NCBI GenBank assembly: GCA_947090765.1
Contig: OX352322.1
Span: 2,339,501-2,403,500, forward strand
Source of the DNA: Pseudomonas sp. MM223
GTDB lineage: Bacteria > Pseudomonadota > Gammaproteobacteria > Pseudomonadales > Pseudomonadaceae
Direction of reading: 5' to 3'
Length of the DNA stretch: 64,000 bases
The position numbers and the translations under genes are program-made. Shown here piece by piece: positions 1,428 to 44,217 of this stretch. The notes below the pieces were generated by a model. The model made no database searches. It worked only from the letters and a program-made list of their open reading frames with translations, and was not told the DNA's origin. How positions within the stretch are numbered: position 1 is the stretch's first letter; every line of letters starts with the position of its first letter.

Positions 1428-2522
1428 ATGTCCCTGGTGCTGGAGCAGGTCAGCCGCAGCGTCGATAACCAGCCCTGGATTGTCGACGCCTCACTGCGTT
1501 TCGAGCCCGGTTCATTCAATGTGCTGCTGGGCCGCACACTGGCCGGCAAGACCAGCCTGATGCGCCTGATGGCCGGGCTCGACCGCCCGGATCGGGGCCG
1601 GGTGCTGATGGATGGCCAGGACGTCACCGGTGTGCCGGTACGCCAGCGCAATGTGTCGATGGTGTATCAGCAATTCATCAATTACCCGACCTTGAGCGTG
1701 TACGAAAACATCGCCTCGCCGCTGCGCCAGGCGCGCATGGCCGAGGACCAGATCCGCCGGCGGGTACAGGAAACCGCCGAGATGCTGCGCATCGAAACCT
1801 ACCTGCAACGCCTGCCGCTGGAACTGTCCGGTGGCCAGCAGCAACGCACTGCCATGGCCAGGGCATTGGTCAAGGATGCCTCGCTGATCCTGTTCGATGA
1901 GCCCTTGGTCAACCTCGACTACAAGTTGCGCGAAGGCCTGCGCCAAGAGCTGCGCGAGCTGTTCGCGGCCCGCCATTGCATTGCCGTATACGCCACCACC
2001 GAGCCCAACGAGGCACTGGCGCTGGGCGGCACCACCACCCTCGTGCACGAAGGCCGAATCGTGCAGAGCGGGCCCACCGCCGAGGTGTACCAGCGCCCGG
2101 GCAGTGTGCTGGCGGCCGAGCTGTTTTCCGAGCCGCCGATAAACCTGGTGGCCGGCCGTATCAGTGGCAACGAGGTGAGCCTGGCCCAGGCGGTGCACTT
2201 TGCCCGCAATGCCGACTTGCAGCCGCTGGCCGAGGGCGACTATCGCTTTGGCGTGCGCCCCAGCCATATCACCCTGGTGCCTGCCCATGATGATGACCTG
2301 GAGTTGGCAGTGCTGGTGGAGTTGGCAGAAATCAGCGGCTCAGAAACCTTTCTGCATGTGCGCAACGAATACTGGCGCATGGTCCTGCACCTGCCCGGTG
2401 TACATGAATACCAGGTGGATACGCCGATCCGCGTGTTCATCCCCACGCACAAGCTGTTCGTCTTCGACAGCGCCGGGGTGTTGGTGCAAGCCCCGGGGCT
2501 GCGCCAGGCAAGGAGAGGGTGA
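1428..2522 (+). CDS. ABC importer ATPase subunit 1 (GlpS-like), divergent H-loop
   Basis: Cytoplasmic ATPase of a carbohydrate/polyol-type ABC importer, 364 aa, in the MalK/UgpC class with a C-terminal regulatory (TOBE-like) region after about residue 240. Visible motifs are Walker A GRTLAGKT (35-42), Q-loop VYQQF, signature LSGGQQQR (133-140) and Walker B LILFDEP (153-159). The H-loop position reads ATTEPNE instead of VTHDQ-E, so the switch histidine is missing. The ATG at 1428 is chosen for its upstream AGAAGG; longer in-frame starts run through the promoter. It is the first gene of a six-gene operon and its stop overlaps the next start. The order of two ATPases, two permeases, a DUF2160 membrane protein and a long binding protein is that of rhizobial GlpSTPQV glycerol transporters. 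The substrate here is inferred. Confidence 0.88.
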   Translation: MSLVLEQVSRSVDNQPWIVDASLRFEPGSFNVLLGRTLAGKTSLMRLMAGLDRPDRGRVLMDGQDVTGVPVRQRNVSMVYQQFINYPTLSVYENIASPLRQARMAEDQIRRRVQETAEMLRIETYLQRLPLELSGGQQQRTAMARALVKDASLILFDEPLVNLDYKLREGLRQELRELFAARHCIAVYATTEPNEALALGGTTTLVHEGRIVQSGPTAEVYQRPGSVLAAELFSEPPINLVAGRISGNEVSLAQAVHFARNADLQPLAEGDYRFGVRPSHITLVPAHDDDLELAVLVELAEISGSETFLHVRNEYWRMVLHLPGVHEYQVDTPIRVFIPTHKLFVFDSAGVLVQAPGLRQARRG

Positions 2523-3615
2523 TGGCCGAAATCCGCCTGCGCCAACTGGCGCACAGCTACAGCCGCCAGCCCACCAGCGAGGCGGACTATGCCCTGCACG
2601 CACTGGAACATGTGTGGGAGCAGGGCGGTGCCTATGCCTTGCTCGGGCCATCGGGCTGCGGCAAGTCGACCTTGCTCAATATCATTTCCGGGCTGCTGAC
2701 GCCGTCCCATGGCGAGGTGCTGTTCGACGGCAAGCCGGTCAACCAGTTGTCGCCGCAGGCGCGCAACATCGCCCAGGTGTTCCAGTTTCCGGTGGTGTAC
2801 GACACCATGACGGTGTTCGACAACCTGGCTTTCCCTTTGCGCAACCAGGGGCTGGACGAAGCCCGGGTGCGAGCCCGGGTGGAAGAAATAGCCGAGGTGC
2901 TCGACCTGGCTGGCGTGTTGCGCAAGAAGGCGCGCAACCTCAGTGCCGACGAAAAGCAGAAGGTTTCCATGGGGCGCGGCCTGGTGCGCGATGACGTGTC
3001 GGCGATCCTGTTCGACGAGCCGCTGACGGTGATCGACCCGCACCTGAAGTGGAAGCTGCGGCGCAAGCTGAAACAGATCCATGAGCAGTTCAACATCACC
3101 ATGATCTACGTCACCCACGATCAGCTGGAGGCCTCCACCTTCGCTGACAAGATCGCGGTGATGCACGCTGGGCGCATCGTTCAGTTCGGCACCCCGCGCG
3201 AGCTGTTCGAACGGCCCCGGCATACGTTCGTCGGCTACTTCATCGGCAGCCCGGGGATGAACCTGATCGACGTGCGCGCCGAGGCCGATGGGGTGGCCTT
3301 CGGCAATGTCCACCTGGCGCTGCCCGATGGCCTGCGCGAGCGGCTGGCGACGACTACGGGTGGGCGGCTGCAGGTGGGTATTCGCCCGGAGTTCGTGCAG
3401 CTATGGGACAGCCCGTTCGAGGATGCCCACCCGGCGCGGGTGCTGGATGTCGAAGACCTGGGTACCTACCGTATCGTCACCCTCGACCTGGGCGGTGTCG
3501 CGCTCAAGGCGCGGCTGGGCGAGGACCGCCCGTTGCCCGTGGACCAGGCCTGGGTCAGCCTGCCGGCGCAGTGGCTGATGCTATACGTCGACGACGTGCT
3601 GCTGGAGGCCGGGCC

Positions 3616-4485: not shown

Positions 4486-5286
<801 letters not shown>

Positions 5287-5298
5287 GGAGGGCGACGC

Positions 5299-5571
5299 AT
5301 GGAATGGATGGCCTGGACTTTGCCAACGGCGTTGTTCTTCGCCGCGGTGGGCGTGCTGCTGCTGGGCATGACCTTGCTTGAACTGCGACGCCCCTGCGTG
5401 GAACGACGGGGTTTCTTGCCGCTGGTCACCAGCCGTGGTGACCGCTTGTTCATCGGCCTGCTGGCCAGCGCCTACCTGCACCTGCTGGTGGTCGGCGTCA
5501 GCGACTGGCCCTTGTGGGTGGCCTCGCTGCTGTCGCTGGCGTGGCTGATGGTGGTGCTGCGCTGGGGCTGA
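5299..5571 (+). CDS. Small DUF2160-type membrane protein of the ABC operon
   Basis: Predicted 90-aa integral membrane protein with three hydrophobic stretches: about 6-26 (LPTALFFAAVGVLLLGMTLL), 50-67 and 71-87. Between the first two lies a basic loop (RRPCVERRGF). Its size, topology and place between the second permease and the binding protein match the DUF2160 family seen in GlpSTPQV-like operons. Its role is unknown; an accessory subunit of the importer is the natural inference. The start ATG 5299 follows GAGGAGGG at good distance. Confidence 0.75.
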   Translation: MEWMAWTLPTALFFAAVGVLLLGMTLLELRRPCVERRGFLPLVTSRGDRLFIGLLASAYLHLLVVGVSDWPLWVASLLSLAWLMVVLRWG

Positions 5572-5610
5572 GCAAGCGGCCCTGTGGGATAACTGAAACA
5601 GGAGATCACA

Positions 5611-7350
5611 ATGTTCGATAACAAGCACAACAGGCGACATTTGACCCTTGCCGCGTTGCTGGTACTGGCCGGTGTGCAAGGCACAGCCTGGGCCGACCAG
5701 TATGAAGAGGCGGCAAAAAAATGGATCGGTAGCGAGTTCAAGCCTTCGACCCTTACCCCTGAACAGCAACTGGCCGAATTGCAGTGGTTTATCAAGGCCG
5801 CCGAACCGTTCCGTGGCATGAAGATCAATGTGGTGTCCGAAACCATCACCACCCATGAATATGAATCAAAGGTGCTGGCCAAAGCCTTCAGTGAGATCAC
5901 CGGCATCCAGCTGACCCACGACCTGCTGCAGGAAGGTGACGTGGTAGAAAAACTGCAGACGCAGATGCAGTCGGACAAGAACATCTACGACGGTTGGGTA
6001 AACGACTCCGACCTGATCGGTACGCACTTTCGCTATGGCAAGGTGGAATCAATTACCGACCTGATGGCCAACGAGGGCAAGGACTACACCTCGCCAACCC
6101 TCGACCTGAAGGACTTCATCGGTATCTCCTTCACCACTGCCCCTGATGGCAAGGTCTACCAGCTGCCCGACCAGCAGTTCGCCAACCTGTACTGGTTCCG
6201 TGCCGACTGGTTCGAGCGGCCAGAGCTGAAGGCCAAATTCAAGGAAAAGTACGGTTATGAACTGGGCGTGCCGGTGAACTGGTCGGCCTACGAGGACATT
6301 GCCAAGTTCTTCACCGAAGACGTCAAGGAGATCGATGGCAAGCGTGTCTACGGGCATATGGATTACGGCAAGAAAGACCCATCGCTAGGCTGGCGCTTCA
6401 CCGATGCCTGGTTTTCCATGGCTGGCGGCGGTGACAAGGGCCTGCCCAACGGCTTGCCGGTGGATGAATGGGGCATTCGCGTCGAGGACTGCCACCCGGT
6501 GGGTTCCAGTGTGACCCGCGGCGGCGACACCAATGGGCCGGCCGCTGTCTATGCCACGCAAAAGTACGTGGACTGGATGCGTGCCTACGCGCCCAAGGAA
6601 GCCCAAGGCATGACCTTCTCCGAAGCCGGCCCGGTACCAGCACAGGGCAACATTGCCCAGCAGATATTCTGGTACACCGCGTTTACCGCCGACATGACCA
6701 AGCCAGGTTTGCCGGTGGTGAATGCCGACGGCACGCCGAAGTGGCGCATGGCACCCTCGCCGAAGGGGCCGTACTGGGAAGAGGGGATGAAACTGGGCTA
6801 TCAGGACACCGGCTCGTGGACGTTCTTCAAGTCCACCCCCGAGAAGCAACGCCTGGCGGCGTGGCTGTATGCGCAGTTCGTCACCTCCAAGACCGTGTCG
6901 CTGAAAAAGACCATTGTCGGCCTGACGCCGATTCGTGAGTCGGACATCAATTCCCAGGCCATGACCGATCTGGCACCCAAACTGGGCGGGCTGGTGGAGT
7001 TCTACCGCAGCCCGGCACGGGTACAGTGGACGCCGACCGGCACCAACGTGCCGGATTACCCGCGGTTGGCGCAGTTGTGGTGGAGCCACATTGCCGAAGT
7101 GGCCAGTGGCGAGAAGACCCCGCAGGAAGCCCTGGATGGCCTGGCCCGCGATCAGGACCGCATGATGGAACGCTTGCAGCGCTCCAATGCCCAGGCAACC
7201 TGTGCGCCCAAGATGAACCCGGAGAAAGACGCCCAGTACTGGTTCGACCAGCCGGGCGCGCCGAAACCCAAGCTGGCCAACGAAAAGCCCAAGGGCGAAA
7301 CAGTCAGCTACAACGAACTGCTTAAATCGTGGGAGGCGGCGCGCAAATGA
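5611..7350 (+). CDS. Periplasmic substrate-binding protein of the ABC importer (GlpV-like)
   Basis: Exported solute receptor, 579 aa, longer than most family-1 sugar-binding proteins (about 400-450). The signal peptide has a basic start (NKHNRRH), hydrophobic LTLAALLVLAGV and likely cleavage after GTAWA near residue 29. There is no lipobox cysteine, so the mature protein should be periplasmic. The region around 60-480 has the layout of an extracellular solute-binding domain. It is the last gene of the operon, 40 bp after DUF2160 with its own AGGAGA site, and is followed by a REP pair. The substrate (glycerol or a related polyol) is inferred from operon type. Confidence 0.85.
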   Translation: MFDNKHNRRHLTLAALLVLAGVQGTAWADQYEEAAKKWIGSEFKPSTLTPEQQLAELQWFIKAAEPFRGMKINVVSETITTHEYESKVLAKAFSEITGIQLTHDLLQEGDVVEKLQTQMQSDKNIYDGWVNDSDLIGTHFRYGKVESITDLMANEGKDYTSPTLDLKDFIGISFTTAPDGKVYQLPDQQFANLYWFRADWFERPELKAKFKEKYGYELGVPVNWSAYEDIAKFFTEDVKEIDGKRVYGHMDYGKKDPSLGWRFTDAWFSMAGGGDKGLPNGLPVDEWGIRVEDCHPVGSSVTRGGDTNGPAAVYATQKYVDWMRAYAPKEAQGMTFSEAGPVPAQGNIAQQIFWYTAFTADMTKPGLPVVNADGTPKWRMAPSPKGPYWEEGMKLGYQDTGSWTFFKSTPEKQRLAAWLYAQFVTSKTVSLKKTIVGLTPIRESDINSQAMTDLAPKLGGLVEFYRSPARVQWTPTGTNVPDYPRLAQLWWSHIAEVASGEKTPQEALDGLARDQDRMMERLQRSNAQATCAPKMNPEKDAQYWFDQPGAPKPKLANEKPKGETVSYNELLKSWEAARK

Positions 7351-39591: not shown

Positions 39592-40934
39592 TCACAAGCC
39601 CTGCAGGGTCTGCATCAGCACCCGCACTTTGGCAATTGACTCTTCATATTCGGCCTGCCACTCGGAGTCGGCCACTACCGCACCGCCGCCCCAGCAACTG
39701 ACCTGGCCGTCCTTGACCAGCAGGCTGCGAATGGCAATCGAGCTGTCCATCTCGCCGCGTACGTCCACATACAGCAGCGAGCCGCAGTACAGCGCCCGGC
39801 GGGCAGGCTCCAGCTCGTCGATGATCTGCATGGCGCGGATCTTCGGCGCCCCGGTGATCGAGCCGCCGGGGAAGCTGTCGCCGATCAGGTCCAGGGCATC
39901 CTTGTCGCTGGCCAGCTGGCCGGTGATGCTGCTGACCAGGTGGTGCACGTTGGGGTAGCTCTCCAGGCTGAACAGCCCGGTACCTTCACCGAACCGATCT
40001 TGCAGGTGCGCCCCAGGTCGTTGCGCAGCAGGTCGACGATCATCAGGTTTTCCGAGCGGTCCTTGGGGCTGTGCAGCAGCTCGTCGGCATTGCGCTTGTC
40101 TTCAGTCGGGTCGCTGGCACGTGGGCGGGTGCCCTTGATCGGCCGGGTTTCTACCTGGCCCTGGCTGACGCGGATGAAGCGCTCGGGCGAAAAGCTCAGC
40201 AAGGCACTGCCATCGGCCATTTGCTGATAGCCGGAGAACGGCGTCGGGCAGGCTTGGCGCAGGGCCTGGTAGGCGTGCCACGGGTCACCCTGGCAAGGGG
40301 CGCGGAAGCGTTGGGTGAGGTTGATCTGGTAGCAGTCGCCGGCCTGGATATAGCGTTGTACCTGGTCGAAAGCTGCTTTGTACTGCTCGGGTTGCAGGTC
40401 ACCGACCATCGGCGCGAGCAGCCGGAACTCACCGGTTTCGGTGCTGCTGTCACCTTGGAACAAGCTGATCAGGCGCTCGCGTTCATCGCTTGCCAGGCTG
40501 GGGTGAAACACCAGTTGGCTGGTGCCGCATAGGTGGTCGCTGACCAGTGCCCAGGCATACAGACCCAGTTGTGCGTCGGGCAGGCCGAGGTCGTCCACGG
40601 CCAGGCTTGGCAGGTGTTCCAGGCGGCGGCCGAAGTCGTAGCTCAGGTAGCCGATCAGGCCCCCTGCGAAGGGCAGCTCGCAGCCTTCTGGCAGTTGCGC
40701 GTCGCCCAGTTGCACCAGGCCGGCGCGCAGGCGCTTGAGGAAGGTGCGGCCTTCTTCGTCGGGGTGCGCTTGCAGCTGTTGCAGTGGCCAGGCGCTGAGC
40801 AGGTCGAAGCGGCCGCGTTCGGCGCCTGGGCGGGCGCTGTCGAGCAGGATCGCGCCGGGGGCCTGGCGCAGGCGGGCGAAATAGGCGGCAGGGTCGGGCT
40901 GGTAGGGCAGGGGGTAAAGCGTACAGGTCGGCAT
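39592..40934 (-). pseudogene. pabB: Aminodeoxychorismate synthase component I, broken by a one-base frameshift
   Basis: PabB makes 4-amino-4-deoxychorismate for folate. The N-terminal frame runs from ATG 40934 through GYLSYDFGRRLE, RPIKGTRPRASDPTEDKRNADEL and ENLMIVDLLRNDLGRTCKIGS. It then changes frame just after SVKVPG. The rest (HHLVSSITGQLASDKDALD, DSFPGGSITGAPKIRAMQII, ending MQTLQGL at 39592) continues in another frame. Reading the C-run at 39976-39978 as four bases restores one protein of about 447 aa with the family junction VPGLFSLESYPNVHH. Either a recent mutation or a sequencing error. All catalytic motifs are present on the two pieces. Confidence 0.85.
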
Positions 40935-41029
40935 CAGTGTGGACGGCGATGTAAAAGCGAGGAGGGCGATTGTAGACCTGTGTAGGAAAAGCGCCTAGCA
41001 CTGGGCGCGACATTCAACGTTGTGTTTTA

Positions 41030-41156
41030 TACAGGGGCCGCTTTGCGGCCCTTTCGCGGCACAAGGCCGCTCCTACAGGTGCGCCCCCGTTGCATGAGCT
41101 GCGATCTCCTGTAGGAGCGGCCTTGTGCCGCGAAAGGGCTGCAAAGCAGCCCCAGC
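41030..41156. repeat. Inverted pair of REP elements
   Basis: Two opposed type-1 copies (core TTTCGCGGCACAAGGCCGCT) between pabB and the ATP-grasp operon. The inner copy abuts the ATP-grasp stop codon and could form its transcript end. Confidence 0.9.
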
Positions 41157-41159
41157 ATT

Positions 41160-42140
41160 TCAGCGGTTGGGCACGTGCCCGAACAACCCCTGCGCTACCC
41201 GAACACGCTGCTCGGCATCTTCGGTAATGCCGTCCTTGGCCAGCGCTTCGATGTGCGCCTCGATGGCATGGGTACGCTGGGTGAGGCCGCAGTCGTTGGC
41301 AATCTGGATGTTCAGGCCCGGGCGGGCGTTGAGCTCCAGAATCAGTGGGCCTTTTTCCTGGTCCAGTACCATGTCCACGCCGATGTAACCCAGCCCGCAC
41401 AGTTCGTAGCAACCGGCAGCCAGCTTCATGAAACCGTCCCAGTTCGGCAGTTGCACACCGTCTACCGCGTTGGTGGTGTCCGGGTGCTTGCTGATGATGT
41501 TGTTCAGCCAGGTGCCGCGCAAGGTCACGCCGGTAGCCAGGTCGACGCCCACGCCAATGGCGCCCTGGTGCAGGTTGGCCTTGCCGCCGGACTGGCGGGT
41601 TGGCAGGCGCAGCATGGCCATTACCGGGTAACCCATCAGCACGATGATGCGGATGTCCGGCACGCCTTCGTAGCTGATGCTCTTGAAGATCTGGTCGGGC
41701 GTAACCCGGTACTCGATCAGCGCCCGGTCGCGGTGGCCGCCCAGCGAGTACAGGCCGGTGAGGATGCTCGAAATCTGGTGCTCGATTTCCTCGTGGCTGA
41801 TGATCTTGCCCGACACCGTGCGGTAGCGGTCCTCGAAGCGGTCGGCGATTACCAGGATGCCATCACCGCCGGCGCCTTGCGCCGGCTTGATGACGAAATC
41901 GCTGCGCCCGCCAATGATCTGGTCGAGCTTCTCGATTTCTTTCTCGGTTTCGATGATGCCGTACATTTCCGGCACATGGATGCCGGCCGCCAGGGCGCGC
42001 TCCTTGGTGATGATCTTGTCGTCGACGATCGGGTACAGGCTGCGCTTGTTGTACTTCAACACGTAGTCCGCGTTGCGCCGGTTGATACCCATGATGCCCC
42101 GGGCCTCCAGGGCTTTCCACGTCTTGATCAGGCCAAACAT
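41160..42140 (-). CDS. ATP-grasp ligase, alpha-L-glutamate ligase-like
   Basis: 326-aa cytosolic ATP-grasp enzyme predicted to form an amide or peptide bond by an acyl-phosphate. The ATP-binding loop is DFVIKPAQGAGGDGILVI (about 81-98), and the metal-binding end GPLILELNARPGLNIQIAND lies at about 266-285. It belongs with the RimK-related proteins annotated alpha-L-glutamate ligase-like. There is no signal peptide. The start ATG 42140 overlaps the last base of the preceding membrane-protein gene, so the two are translationally coupled. It is the last gene of the retropepsin/transglutaminase/ATP-grasp operon. Acceptor and amino acid donor are unknown. Confidence 0.88.
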   Translation of the reverse strand: MFGLIKTWKALEARGIMGINRRNADYVLKYNKRSLYPIVDDKIITKERALAAGIHVPEMYGIIETEKEIEKLDQIIGGRSDFVIKPAQGAGGDGILVIADRFEDRYRTVSGKIISHEEIEHQISSILTGLYSLGGHRDRALIEYRVTPDQIFKSISYEGVPDIRIIVLMGYPVMAMLRLPTRQSGGKANLHQGAIGVGVDLATGVTLRGTWLNNIISKHPDTTNAVDGVQLPNWDGFMKLAAGCYELCGLGYIGVDMVLDQEKGPLILELNARPGLNIQIANDCGLTQRTHAIEAHIEALAKDGITEDAEQRVRVAQGLFGHVPNR

Positions 42141-43675
42141 CAGGCGTCAGCCTTCTTCAGGAATGCCTTGAAGCGCACGAGTTCGGTCAGGCGGTAGCCA
42201 CGGTAGCGGCCCATCGCCAGCATGAAGCCCACCAGGATCAGCAGTACGGCCGGGAACGTGAACACGAAGTACACCAGCCTCGGCACCATCATCAGCAGGT
42301 GCGCCACGGAGGCCGCAAACAGGGTGCCGATGGCCACTTTCATGGCATGGCCGCCGCCACGCTCTTCCCAGGTGATGGACAGGCGCTCGATGGTCATGGT
42401 CAGGATCACCATCGGGAACAGTGCCACCGACAGCCCGCGCTCAAGGCCCAGCTTGTGGCTGAACAGGCTGATGGCGGCGATCAGCACCACGACGAAGGTG
42501 AGCACCACCGACAGGCGTGGCAGCATTTGCAGCTTGAGGTGTTCCAGGTACGAGCGCAGCGACAGGCCAAGCGCGGTAATCACCGTGAACAGCACAATGC
42601 CGAAGCCCAGCTGGGTCTCGCGGAAGGCCAGGGCGATCAGCACCGGGGTGAAGGTACCGAGGGTTTGCAGGCCGATCAGGTTGCGCAGTACCAGGATCAC
42701 CAGCACGCCGATCGGGATCATTACCATGATCATGAAGGTTTGCTGGGTCTGCAGCGGCAGGCCGTACAGCGAATATTCGAGGAAGTCGGCGTCGGTGTTT
42801 TCGTCGGTCAGCTTGGCCAGGCGGATGGCGTTCATCTCGCTGTTGTTCATGCTGAAGGTAACGTTGGCCTTCTTGCCGCCATCGACGGTGATCAGGTTGT
42901 CGTCACCGGTCCACCACAGCAGGCGGTCGCTGGGCAGGCCTTGTTCGCCGGTGTCCGGGTTGAAGTACAGCCAGTCGTTACCGTTGAAGCTGCGCAGCCA
43001 CAGTTCTGGTGTTTGCGGGGTGTCGGCCACCAGGCGGATGGTGTGCACCTTTTCCATCGGCACGTGGGCGATCGACAGCAGCAGGTCGATGACCTGGGCC
43101 TTCTTCATCGGCGAGGTGTCGCCGGCCAGCAGCAGCTTGACGTTGTCGTCGTTGAGGTTGTTGACCCGCTTGATGGTTTCGCTGACAAAGGTCTCGACGT
43201 CGGCAGAGTGCTGGCGAATCGGTGCCATCAAGGCTTCGGCGGCGATCTTCTCGGGGCCTTCGATAGCCAGGCTGTCACGGAAGGTCGGGCCTTTGACCGT
43301 GGTTTTTTCGTTGCTGTAGCGCTTGGTCAGCACCAGGCGGTAATAGAGGGTCTGGTTGCCGCTGGCGCGACGGGCCGACCAGGTAACCTTGCGGTTGCCG
43401 TCGGCACGGTTGACGCTCACCCCGTAGTTATTGGAGATGAAGCTCTCGTTGAGGCTGACGTAGTCGCGGTTCAGTGGTGGCACGAACATCTGCACCTTGA
43501 CCGGGTCTTTGGTGCTGGCCACAAACTCGACCTTGGCGTCGATGTTCCACAGGTCGTCGGTTTCGTCCTCGGTCACCGGGATGCCGAGGAAGAAGATCTG
43601 ATAAGCCGTGACCGCCACGCCCAGTAGCACCAGTACGGTGATCAGGACTTTCAGATGGAGGGTAAGAGAGCGCAT
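42140..43675 (-). CDS. Inactive transglutaminase-like domain fused to seven membrane helices
   Basis: 511-aa inner-membrane protein. One N-terminal helix (about 9-30, KVLITVLVLLGVAVTAYQIFF) is followed by a periplasmic part (about 31-315) and seven C-terminal helices (about 320-500). This is the architecture of the inactive transglutaminase plus 7TM family. I find no cysteine anywhere in the protein, so the transglutaminase-like domain cannot use a catalytic Cys and probably binds rather than cleaves peptides. It starts six bases after the retropepsin-like gene's stop and overlaps the ATP-grasp gene. It likely links periplasmic recognition to the cytosolic ligase, which is inference. Confidence 0.88.
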   Translation of the reverse strand: MRSLTLHLKVLITVLVLLGVAVTAYQIFFLGIPVTEDETDDLWNIDAKVEFVASTKDPVKVQMFVPPLNRDYVSLNESFISNNYGVSVNRADGNRKVTWSARRASGNQTLYYRLVLTKRYSNEKTTVKGPTFRDSLAIEGPEKIAAEALMAPIRQHSADVETFVSETIKRVNNLNDDNVKLLLAGDTSPMKKAQVIDLLLSIAHVPMEKVHTIRLVADTPQTPELWLRSFNGNDWLYFNPDTGEQGLPSDRLLWWTGDDNLITVDGGKKANVTFSMNNSEMNAIRLAKLTDENTDADFLEYSLYGLPLQTQQTFMIMVMIPIGVLVILVLRNLIGLQTLGTFTPVLIALAFRETQLGFGIVLFTVITALGLSLRSYLEHLKLQMLPRLSVVLTFVVVLIAAISLFSHKLGLERGLSVALFPMVILTMTIERLSITWEERGGGHAMKVAIGTLFAASVAHLLMMVPRLVYFVFTFPAVLLILVGFMLAMGRYRGYRLTELVRFKAFLKKADA

Positions 43676-43680
43676 CGGGA

Positions 43681-44217
43681 TTACTCTGCTTTGGGAGCGT
43701 CGGTGGCACAGGCAGGTTTGCCGGCCGCGTATTTAAGGCTTGGGTCGACCAGCGCGTCGAAGTGCTTGAGCGCCTCGGAGCCGATCAGCAGCGGGAACTG
43801 GAAGGCGCTGCGGTCGGTGAGGTTGACTTCGATGGTGCGCATGGCCTGGCCCATGCAGATTTCAAGTTCGATGACCGGGCGTGCCGTGTAGGCCTTGCCC
43901 GATTCGGCATCATAGTCGCCGGCCCGGCGCTTGATCTTGCTCACGCGTGCCAGTGGGCGCTCGATCGGGTGCGAATGCGCAGCATCGATGGCCAGGTAGA
44001 AGCGCACCCAGCTTTCGCCGTTGCGCTTGAACCGCTTGATATCGCGGGCGCTGAGCGAGGCGGTCTTGGCACCGGTGTCGAGCTTGGCGGCCACTTCCAG
44101 GTCCAGGTCGCCCAGCCGTGCATATTCGTTGAGACCATAGACGGTCTTGCCCGCAGCTTGGCCAAGGGCTGGCAGCAGGGTGAGGCATAGCAGCAATAAA
44201 ACGGGTGTAAGTCTCAT
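43681..44217 (-). CDS. Retropepsin-like aspartic protease domain protein (Zn_protease/DUF785 family), exported
   Basis: 178-aa protein with a signal peptide (MRLTPVLLLLCLTLLPALGQAAG, cleavage near residue 23) and a retropepsin-type active-site motif AKLDTGAKTASLSA (Asp47-Thr-Gly-Ala). The family is often annotated ATP-dependent zinc protease, but the DTGA motif points to a dimeric aspartic-protease fold, as in RimB. The signal peptide places it in the periplasm, unlike RimB. First gene of a three-gene operon with the transglutaminase-7TM and ATP-grasp genes. It would face the periplasmic domain of the membrane partner. Target unknown. Confidence 0.85.
   Translation of the reverse strand: MRLTPVLLLLCLTLLPALGQAAGKTVYGLNEYARLGDLDLEVAAKLDTGAKTASLSARDIKRFKRNGESWVRFYLAIDAAHSHPIERPLARVSKIKRRAGDYDAESGKAYTARPVIELEICMGQAMRTIEVNLTDRSAFQFPLLIGSEALKHFDALVDPSLKYAAGKPACATDAPKAE

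Follow-up and report, generated by a model that had tools for sequence, protein, structure and literature searches.

The rlo locus of Pseudomonas sp. MM223

The window analysed here, a 64,000-nt stretch of the Pseudomonas sp. MM223 genome (contig OX352322.1, positions 2,339,501 to 2,403,500), carries three consecutive genes in an operon-like run, the operon itself being predicted from gene spacing (Table 1). By their sequence matches, these are almost certainly the Pseudomonas copy of the rlo operon, which has already been described and named in P. aeruginosa (mBio 2025; PMC12239564) and whose genes there appear as PA1768-PA1767-PA1766 in a portion of PMC7314104. A first-pass annotation of this DNA had correctly recognised a three-gene module in which the second and third genes overlap: all three are on the minus strand, and rloB and rloC have one base (42140) in common. 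The gap between rloA and rloB is 5 nt (43676–43680), however, and not the 6 nt first given, and the description of the module as an "unworked biological system" is wrong, the system having been published and named in 2025.

Table 1. Genes of the rlo run and the separately modelled part of rloB, in window coordinates
Feature	Product	Position	Strand	Length	Matches or method
rloA (RloA1)	secreted retropepsin-like aspartic protease	43681..44217	minus	178 aa	NF052262; PF05618; chain 9g58
rloB	7TM inner-membrane protein with an inactive transglutaminase-fold domain in the periplasm	42140..43675	minus	511 aa	NF052267; PF14400 + PF14402
rloC	cytosolic ATP-grasp ligase, RimK-related	41160..42140	minus	326 aa	TIGR02291; PF14397
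7TM part of rloB, modelled alone		42152..42781	minus		AlphaFold2

Directly after rloC (41029–41158) is an inverted repeat of 51 nt, 92% complementary and with a 28-nt spacer, of the kind found in Pseudomonas REP elements. Beyond it, a pabB-like gene (named by eye; 39592–40934, minus strand) is spread over two frames, in ORFs 39885–40934 and 39592–39948, and looks to have been frameshifted near 39950, through mutation or assembly error.

RloA of the window scores 344 bits against the NCBIfam RloA1 model (NF052262; cut-off 280) and matches PF05618 in Pfam (E 3e-46); the nearest solved chain is 9g58 (296 bits). The signal peptide and DTGA active site noticed in the first pass are both present, with a signal peptide-like N-terminus and Asp47 within the DTGA motif. 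This N-terminus, together with a score of 82 bits against the RimB model (cut-off 200), places the protein outside the RimB-RimK group. In P. aeruginosa RloA, a dimer with a retropepsin fold, polyglutamate contacts are made by K46, R92, K95, K97, R99, K109, R114, and R137, and the catalytic residue is D48 (PMC12239564). The window protein keeps all eight contact positions and the catalytic Asp, each one position earlier (K45, D47, R91, K94, K96, R98, K108, R113, and R136). The two operons thus agree in their genes and gene order, in their domains, and, for RloA, in the signal peptide, the catalytic Asp, and the residues that contact glutamate; the genomes differ in that a PF05618 search of the host finds three proteins, RloA1, RloA2 (296 bits; cut-off 250), and RimB (289 bits; cut-off 200), and no fourth, whereas P. 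aeruginosa carries three RloAs and RimB (PMC12239564). The host RimB has RimK beside it (L003). This separate RimB-RimK pair resembles the rlo genes in combining a retropepsin-like protease with an ATP-grasp ligase (RimK being a glutamate ligase), but RimB-RimK is cytosolic and has no membrane partner.

RloB scores 1071 bits against its NCBIfam model (NF052267; cut-off 900), with Pfam matches to PF14400 (inactive transglutaminase; E 4e-48) and PF14402 (7TM; E 1e-97), and is the only PF14402 protein in the host genome. That a membrane protein with a transglutaminase-like domain should have no cysteine at all, as the first reading had it, holds for all 511 residues; the Cys-His-Asp triad is missing, the aligned positions being P, E, and N, so the protein falls outside the transglutaminase-superfamily enzymes. 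Among the 120 best-matching RloBs listed, those named by organism are nearly all from Pseudomonas, several of them P. putida. AlphaFold2 modelling of the 7TM part alone gave a pLDDT of 80.0 and a pTM of 0.75, and a Foldseek search with this model returned no match at E 0.001 or better.

RloC, likewise correctly called an ATP-grasp ligase, scores 565 bits against the RimK-related model TIGR02291 (cut-off 314); in Pfam it matches PF14397 (E 4e-98), whose name is "sugar-transfer associated" ATP-grasp, with a weaker match to RimK. In an alignment of 46 RloC rows, two of them the window protein, the putative metal-binding residues E269 and N271 are conserved in at least 97%.

What has been published on rlo

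The P. aeruginosa work supplies most of what can be said experimentally. RloA cuts reporters with 8 or 10 consecutive glutamates in vitro, and leaves those with 6 or fewer uncut. Cells lacking all three RloAs do not grow without salt and die under hypoosmotic conditions; they are short and wide, form biofilm poorly, and are sensitive to beta-lactams. The catalytic aspartate is not dispensable, as the aspartic protease reading would have it, since growth is not restored by the D48A variant, nor by R114A or R137A. Deletion of rloB or rloC in the triple mutant rescues growth fully and the other defects partly, and either gene deleted singly leaves the cells mildly sick. RloC is 24% identical to RimK, and in Vibrio rlo is controlled by VxrB, part of a system linked to cell-wall integrity (all PMC12239564). 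Three other papers touch on such genes: a flagellar exopolysaccharide screen recovered PA1766-PA1768 as suppressor hits (PMC7314104), PA1767 is one of the genes found altered in two or more mutants in work on ceftazidime resistance (PMC10187892), and an inactive-transglutaminase gene is listed for hypervesiculating mutants of Shewanella vesiculosa (PMC12096838).

Distribution among Pseudomonadota

Of 299 Pseudomonadota genomes sampled, 48 have a PF14402 protein, and 45 of these loci were read. RloC adjoins RloB in all 45, and RloA adjoins it in 37, in the order RloA-RloB-RloC, an arrangement far beyond chance (40 of 48 for RloA if G190, G298, and G023, judged by coordinates only, are included; RloC and the triad were scored in the 45). 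The first-pass annotation had asked for a phylogenetic profile in which the genes might prove to occur apart as often as together; these counts show otherwise. The eight loci with no adjacent RloA are that of G193, which has an RloA with a signal peptide elsewhere in the genome (L067); those of five f32 genomes, where RloB bears the triad; and those of two f38 genomes, which keep the 7TM domain and RloC with no transglutaminase-like domain, and whose sole PF05618 protein is RimB-type, beside RimK. Put the other way, every one of the 38 genomes read in which the RloB domain lacks the triad has an RloA, 37 adjacent and one (G193) elsewhere.

The RloA profile also matches RimB, so the two were told apart by position and N-terminus. 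A strict signal-peptide rule recognised 18 of 40 RloA-type proteins, many of the misses occurring because the locus ended inside the gene, and a looser rule was used instead. This passes 32 of 34 RloA proteins (that of G062 counted twice), the two misses showing signals by eye; it also passes seven (L003, L126, L127, L132, L142, L143, and L146) of 57 retropepsins outside rlo loci, the 57 being 49 from RloB-less genomes and 8 others. By eye we take all seven for false positives, either weak runs or open frames that begin before the real start codon. One profile match (L057) was not counted as RloA: its best model is RimB, at 115 bits (cut-off 200), and it is RimB-type.

So scored, a signal is present in every one of the 30 adjacent RloAs (of 37) with a readable N-terminus, in two cases as judged by eye. 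PF05618 itself is found in 98 of the 299 genomes, 54 of which have no PF14402. Reading of 49 retropepsin loci from 48 of these 54 revealed no signal peptide; 41 of the 49 have a RimK/RloC-type ATP-grasp ligase in the stretch, and eight have none. Within this sample, secreted RloA is found only in genomes with RloB.

Among the RloA proteins of the widely flanked loci (L088-L102), a lipobox was recognised by pattern in 10 of 14, with 61–113 residues between its Cys and the protease domain, and by eye in two more (L089, L102), making 12 of 14 predicted lipoproteins with a long linker. None was found by pattern in the 20 other RloAs scanned, that of the window included. Outside the Pseudomonas of the window, then, RloA is predicted often to be lipid-anchored; the word "lipoprotein" is absent from the main text of the 2025 rlo paper (PMC12239564).

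In 20 loci (the 15 with wide flanks and five others) no neighbour beyond the three rlo genes is common to more than five, cmoA/cmoB-like genes being found by eye in five. Some single arrangements may be recorded: four f53 genomes (L063-L066) have an ATP-grasp gene before rloA, glutathione-synthetase-like in the one copy scanned (L063); RimB and RimK are apparently fused in a single open frame of 472–572 aa at L069, L070, L113, and L142; and one f38 genome (L057) has a RimB-RimK type pair about 1 kb from its 7TM-only RloB and RloC (2174–3567, 4580–6422).

A sister clade with an intact triad

The relatives of RloB that bear the triad form a sister clade from Mariprofundaceae/Ghiorsea and a few other proteobacterial MAGs. 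Cys-His-Asp is present in the transglutaminase domain at all ten loci (L052-L056, L077, L078, L079, L081, and L084); the one clade member scanned against models (L076) matches PF01841 and scores 151.7 bits with the RloB model, against its cut-off of 900. Like the window, these loci have an RloB-like membrane protein beside an RloC-like ligase; they differ from it in the triad, in having no adjacent RloA at any locus read, and in what follows. Where the contig continues, the order is triad-bearing RloB, RloC, a TPR protein (nine of nine loci in which the DNA extends this far), and then a predicted barrel (eight of eight). We recognised no description of a triad-bearing RloB among the matches listed from the open PMC literature. 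One MAG (UBA6915, G299) has both types: at L077 a triad-bearing RloB with no RloA, and elsewhere, at L087, a triad-lacking RloB frame together with an RloA.

The joining of RloB-RloC to a TPR protein and a predicted barrel leads us to read the sister-clade system as a probable exporter. A search around ten further RloB loci (L057-L066) found neither gene, so the case for export is borrowed from a distant sister clade. In f38, a small outer-membrane protein is predicted next to the 7TM-RloC pair; it does not resemble the sister-clade barrel. A live-looking transglutaminase with no RloA in one case, and a dead one with RloA in the other, suggests that two unrelated enzymes may serve one step, a pattern drawn from one clade.

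Possible functions

The reading to which we give a little better than an even chance is one of polymer delivery and trimming, in which RloC and RloB would make a polyglutamate-like chain and deliver it to the periplasm, to be trimmed by RloA. Cytosolic RloC would use ATP to build an acidic chain of amino acids (most probably alpha-linked glutamate), either free or attached to an acceptor. RloB would pass this product into the periplasm, or retain it on the periplasmic face of the inner membrane, with its catalytically dead transglutaminase domain guiding or binding the chain. RloA, cutting runs of at least eight glutamates (lengths of 8 and 10 in the published assays), would keep the product short; uncut product would be the cause of the envelope disturbance that the genetics document when RloA is lost. 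Counted in favour are the family-model matches, the conserved glutamate contacts and catalytic Asp, the way RloA follows RloB across genomes while retropepsins of RloB-less genomes show no signal peptide, the exporter-like arrangement of the sister clade, and the dependence of that harm on RloB and RloC (PMC12239564). The two-sided scheme of the first-pass annotation, with ligase inside, membrane protein between, and protease outside, agrees with these genetics, and the annotation as a whole is supported in part. Counted against delivery and trimming are that no product is reported in PMC12239564, the low identity of RloC to RimK, the lack of a Foldseek match for the 7TM domain, and the absence of TPR and barrel genes around L057-L066; in addition, the mild sickness of the single rloB and rloC deletions (PMC12239564) implies a use for the product that this model does not name.

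A rival reading is one of decoration. RloC and RloB could put an acidic peptide on a precursor that belongs to the cell wall or is lipid-linked, such as the peptidoglycan stem peptide or another glycan; RloA would be the editor, and the transglutaminase-like domain would dock on wall peptides. Sensitivity to beta-lactams, the short and wide cell shape, death in hypoosmotic medium, and VxrB control in Vibrio (PMC12239564) would all fit, as would the Pfam name of the RloC family, but RloA requires glutamate runs in vitro (PMC12239564), and no wall-synthesis gene was recognised by eye among neighbours common to at least three of the 20 loci; we consider this reading unlikely, though of some weight. 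That RloB is a sensor, its dead domain binding RloA-cut peptide and RloC acting as the cytosolic output enzyme, seems improbable: such a role would suit a 7TM protein that carries a pseudo-enzyme domain and is coupled to an enzyme in the cytosol, but the sister-clade domain keeps its full triad with no RloA beside it, and the two f38 loci have 7TM and RloC with no transglutaminase-like domain.

Least credible, and hardly to be entertained, is that the RloB 7TM domain is a distant PgsC/CapC and RloBC a variant poly-gamma-glutamate synthase, as similar Gly/Pro spacing (by eye) and the tandem-CapC proteins of other f32 genomes might hint: comparing profiles built from narrow and from deeper alignments yielded probabilities of about 0.1–6.5% (E 0.0056–0.47), which lend it no support. 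The sensitivity of these comparisons is poorly known: as a positive control, the first half of CapC set against the second gave 69.5% over 48 columns on one occasion, and shared residues spoilt the repeats. RloB has no match to PF14102 (CapC) up to E 10, and sequence searches gave no solved structure related to CapC. Making polyglutamate and passing it out would be a likeness to PgsBC/CapBC, but CapC is without significant similarity to RloB. PgsB, for its part, is a Mur-ligase type enzyme. The f32 proteins with two CapC domains, of about 1080 aa, come from genomes in which PF14402 was not found (L047, L048, L050, and L051); a weak CapC match at L041 (G214) was dropped, its ORF looking by eye like a haem A synthase.

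A possible wider family

Rlo could belong, as a single branch, to a family of envelope machines, so far undescribed, whose members make and secrete an acidic poly-amino acid, with the 7TM protein and ATP-grasp ligase as core. In one branch, a catalytic transglutaminase-fold Cys enzyme fused to the 7TM domain would handle the product, and the TPR protein and barrel would take it across the outer membrane. In the second branch, the domain would have died, secreted RloA would have taken over the cutting, and the product would stay periplasmic. We offer this tentatively, as possible with the chances against it.

To the published account, the present survey adds the adjacency of RloC and RloB at every locus read, the restriction of secreted RloA to genomes with RloB, the triad-bearing sister clade, and the frequency of predicted lipoproteins among RloAs. 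In P. aeruginosa, rlo has effects on cell shape and biofilm as well as on tolerance of osmotic conditions and sensitivity to beta-lactams (PMC12239564). The co-occurrence of RloA with RloB, and the apparent outer-membrane exit in the sister clade, turn its function into a testable question: whether the periplasm contains an acidic chain that depends on RloC and can be cleaved by RloA.
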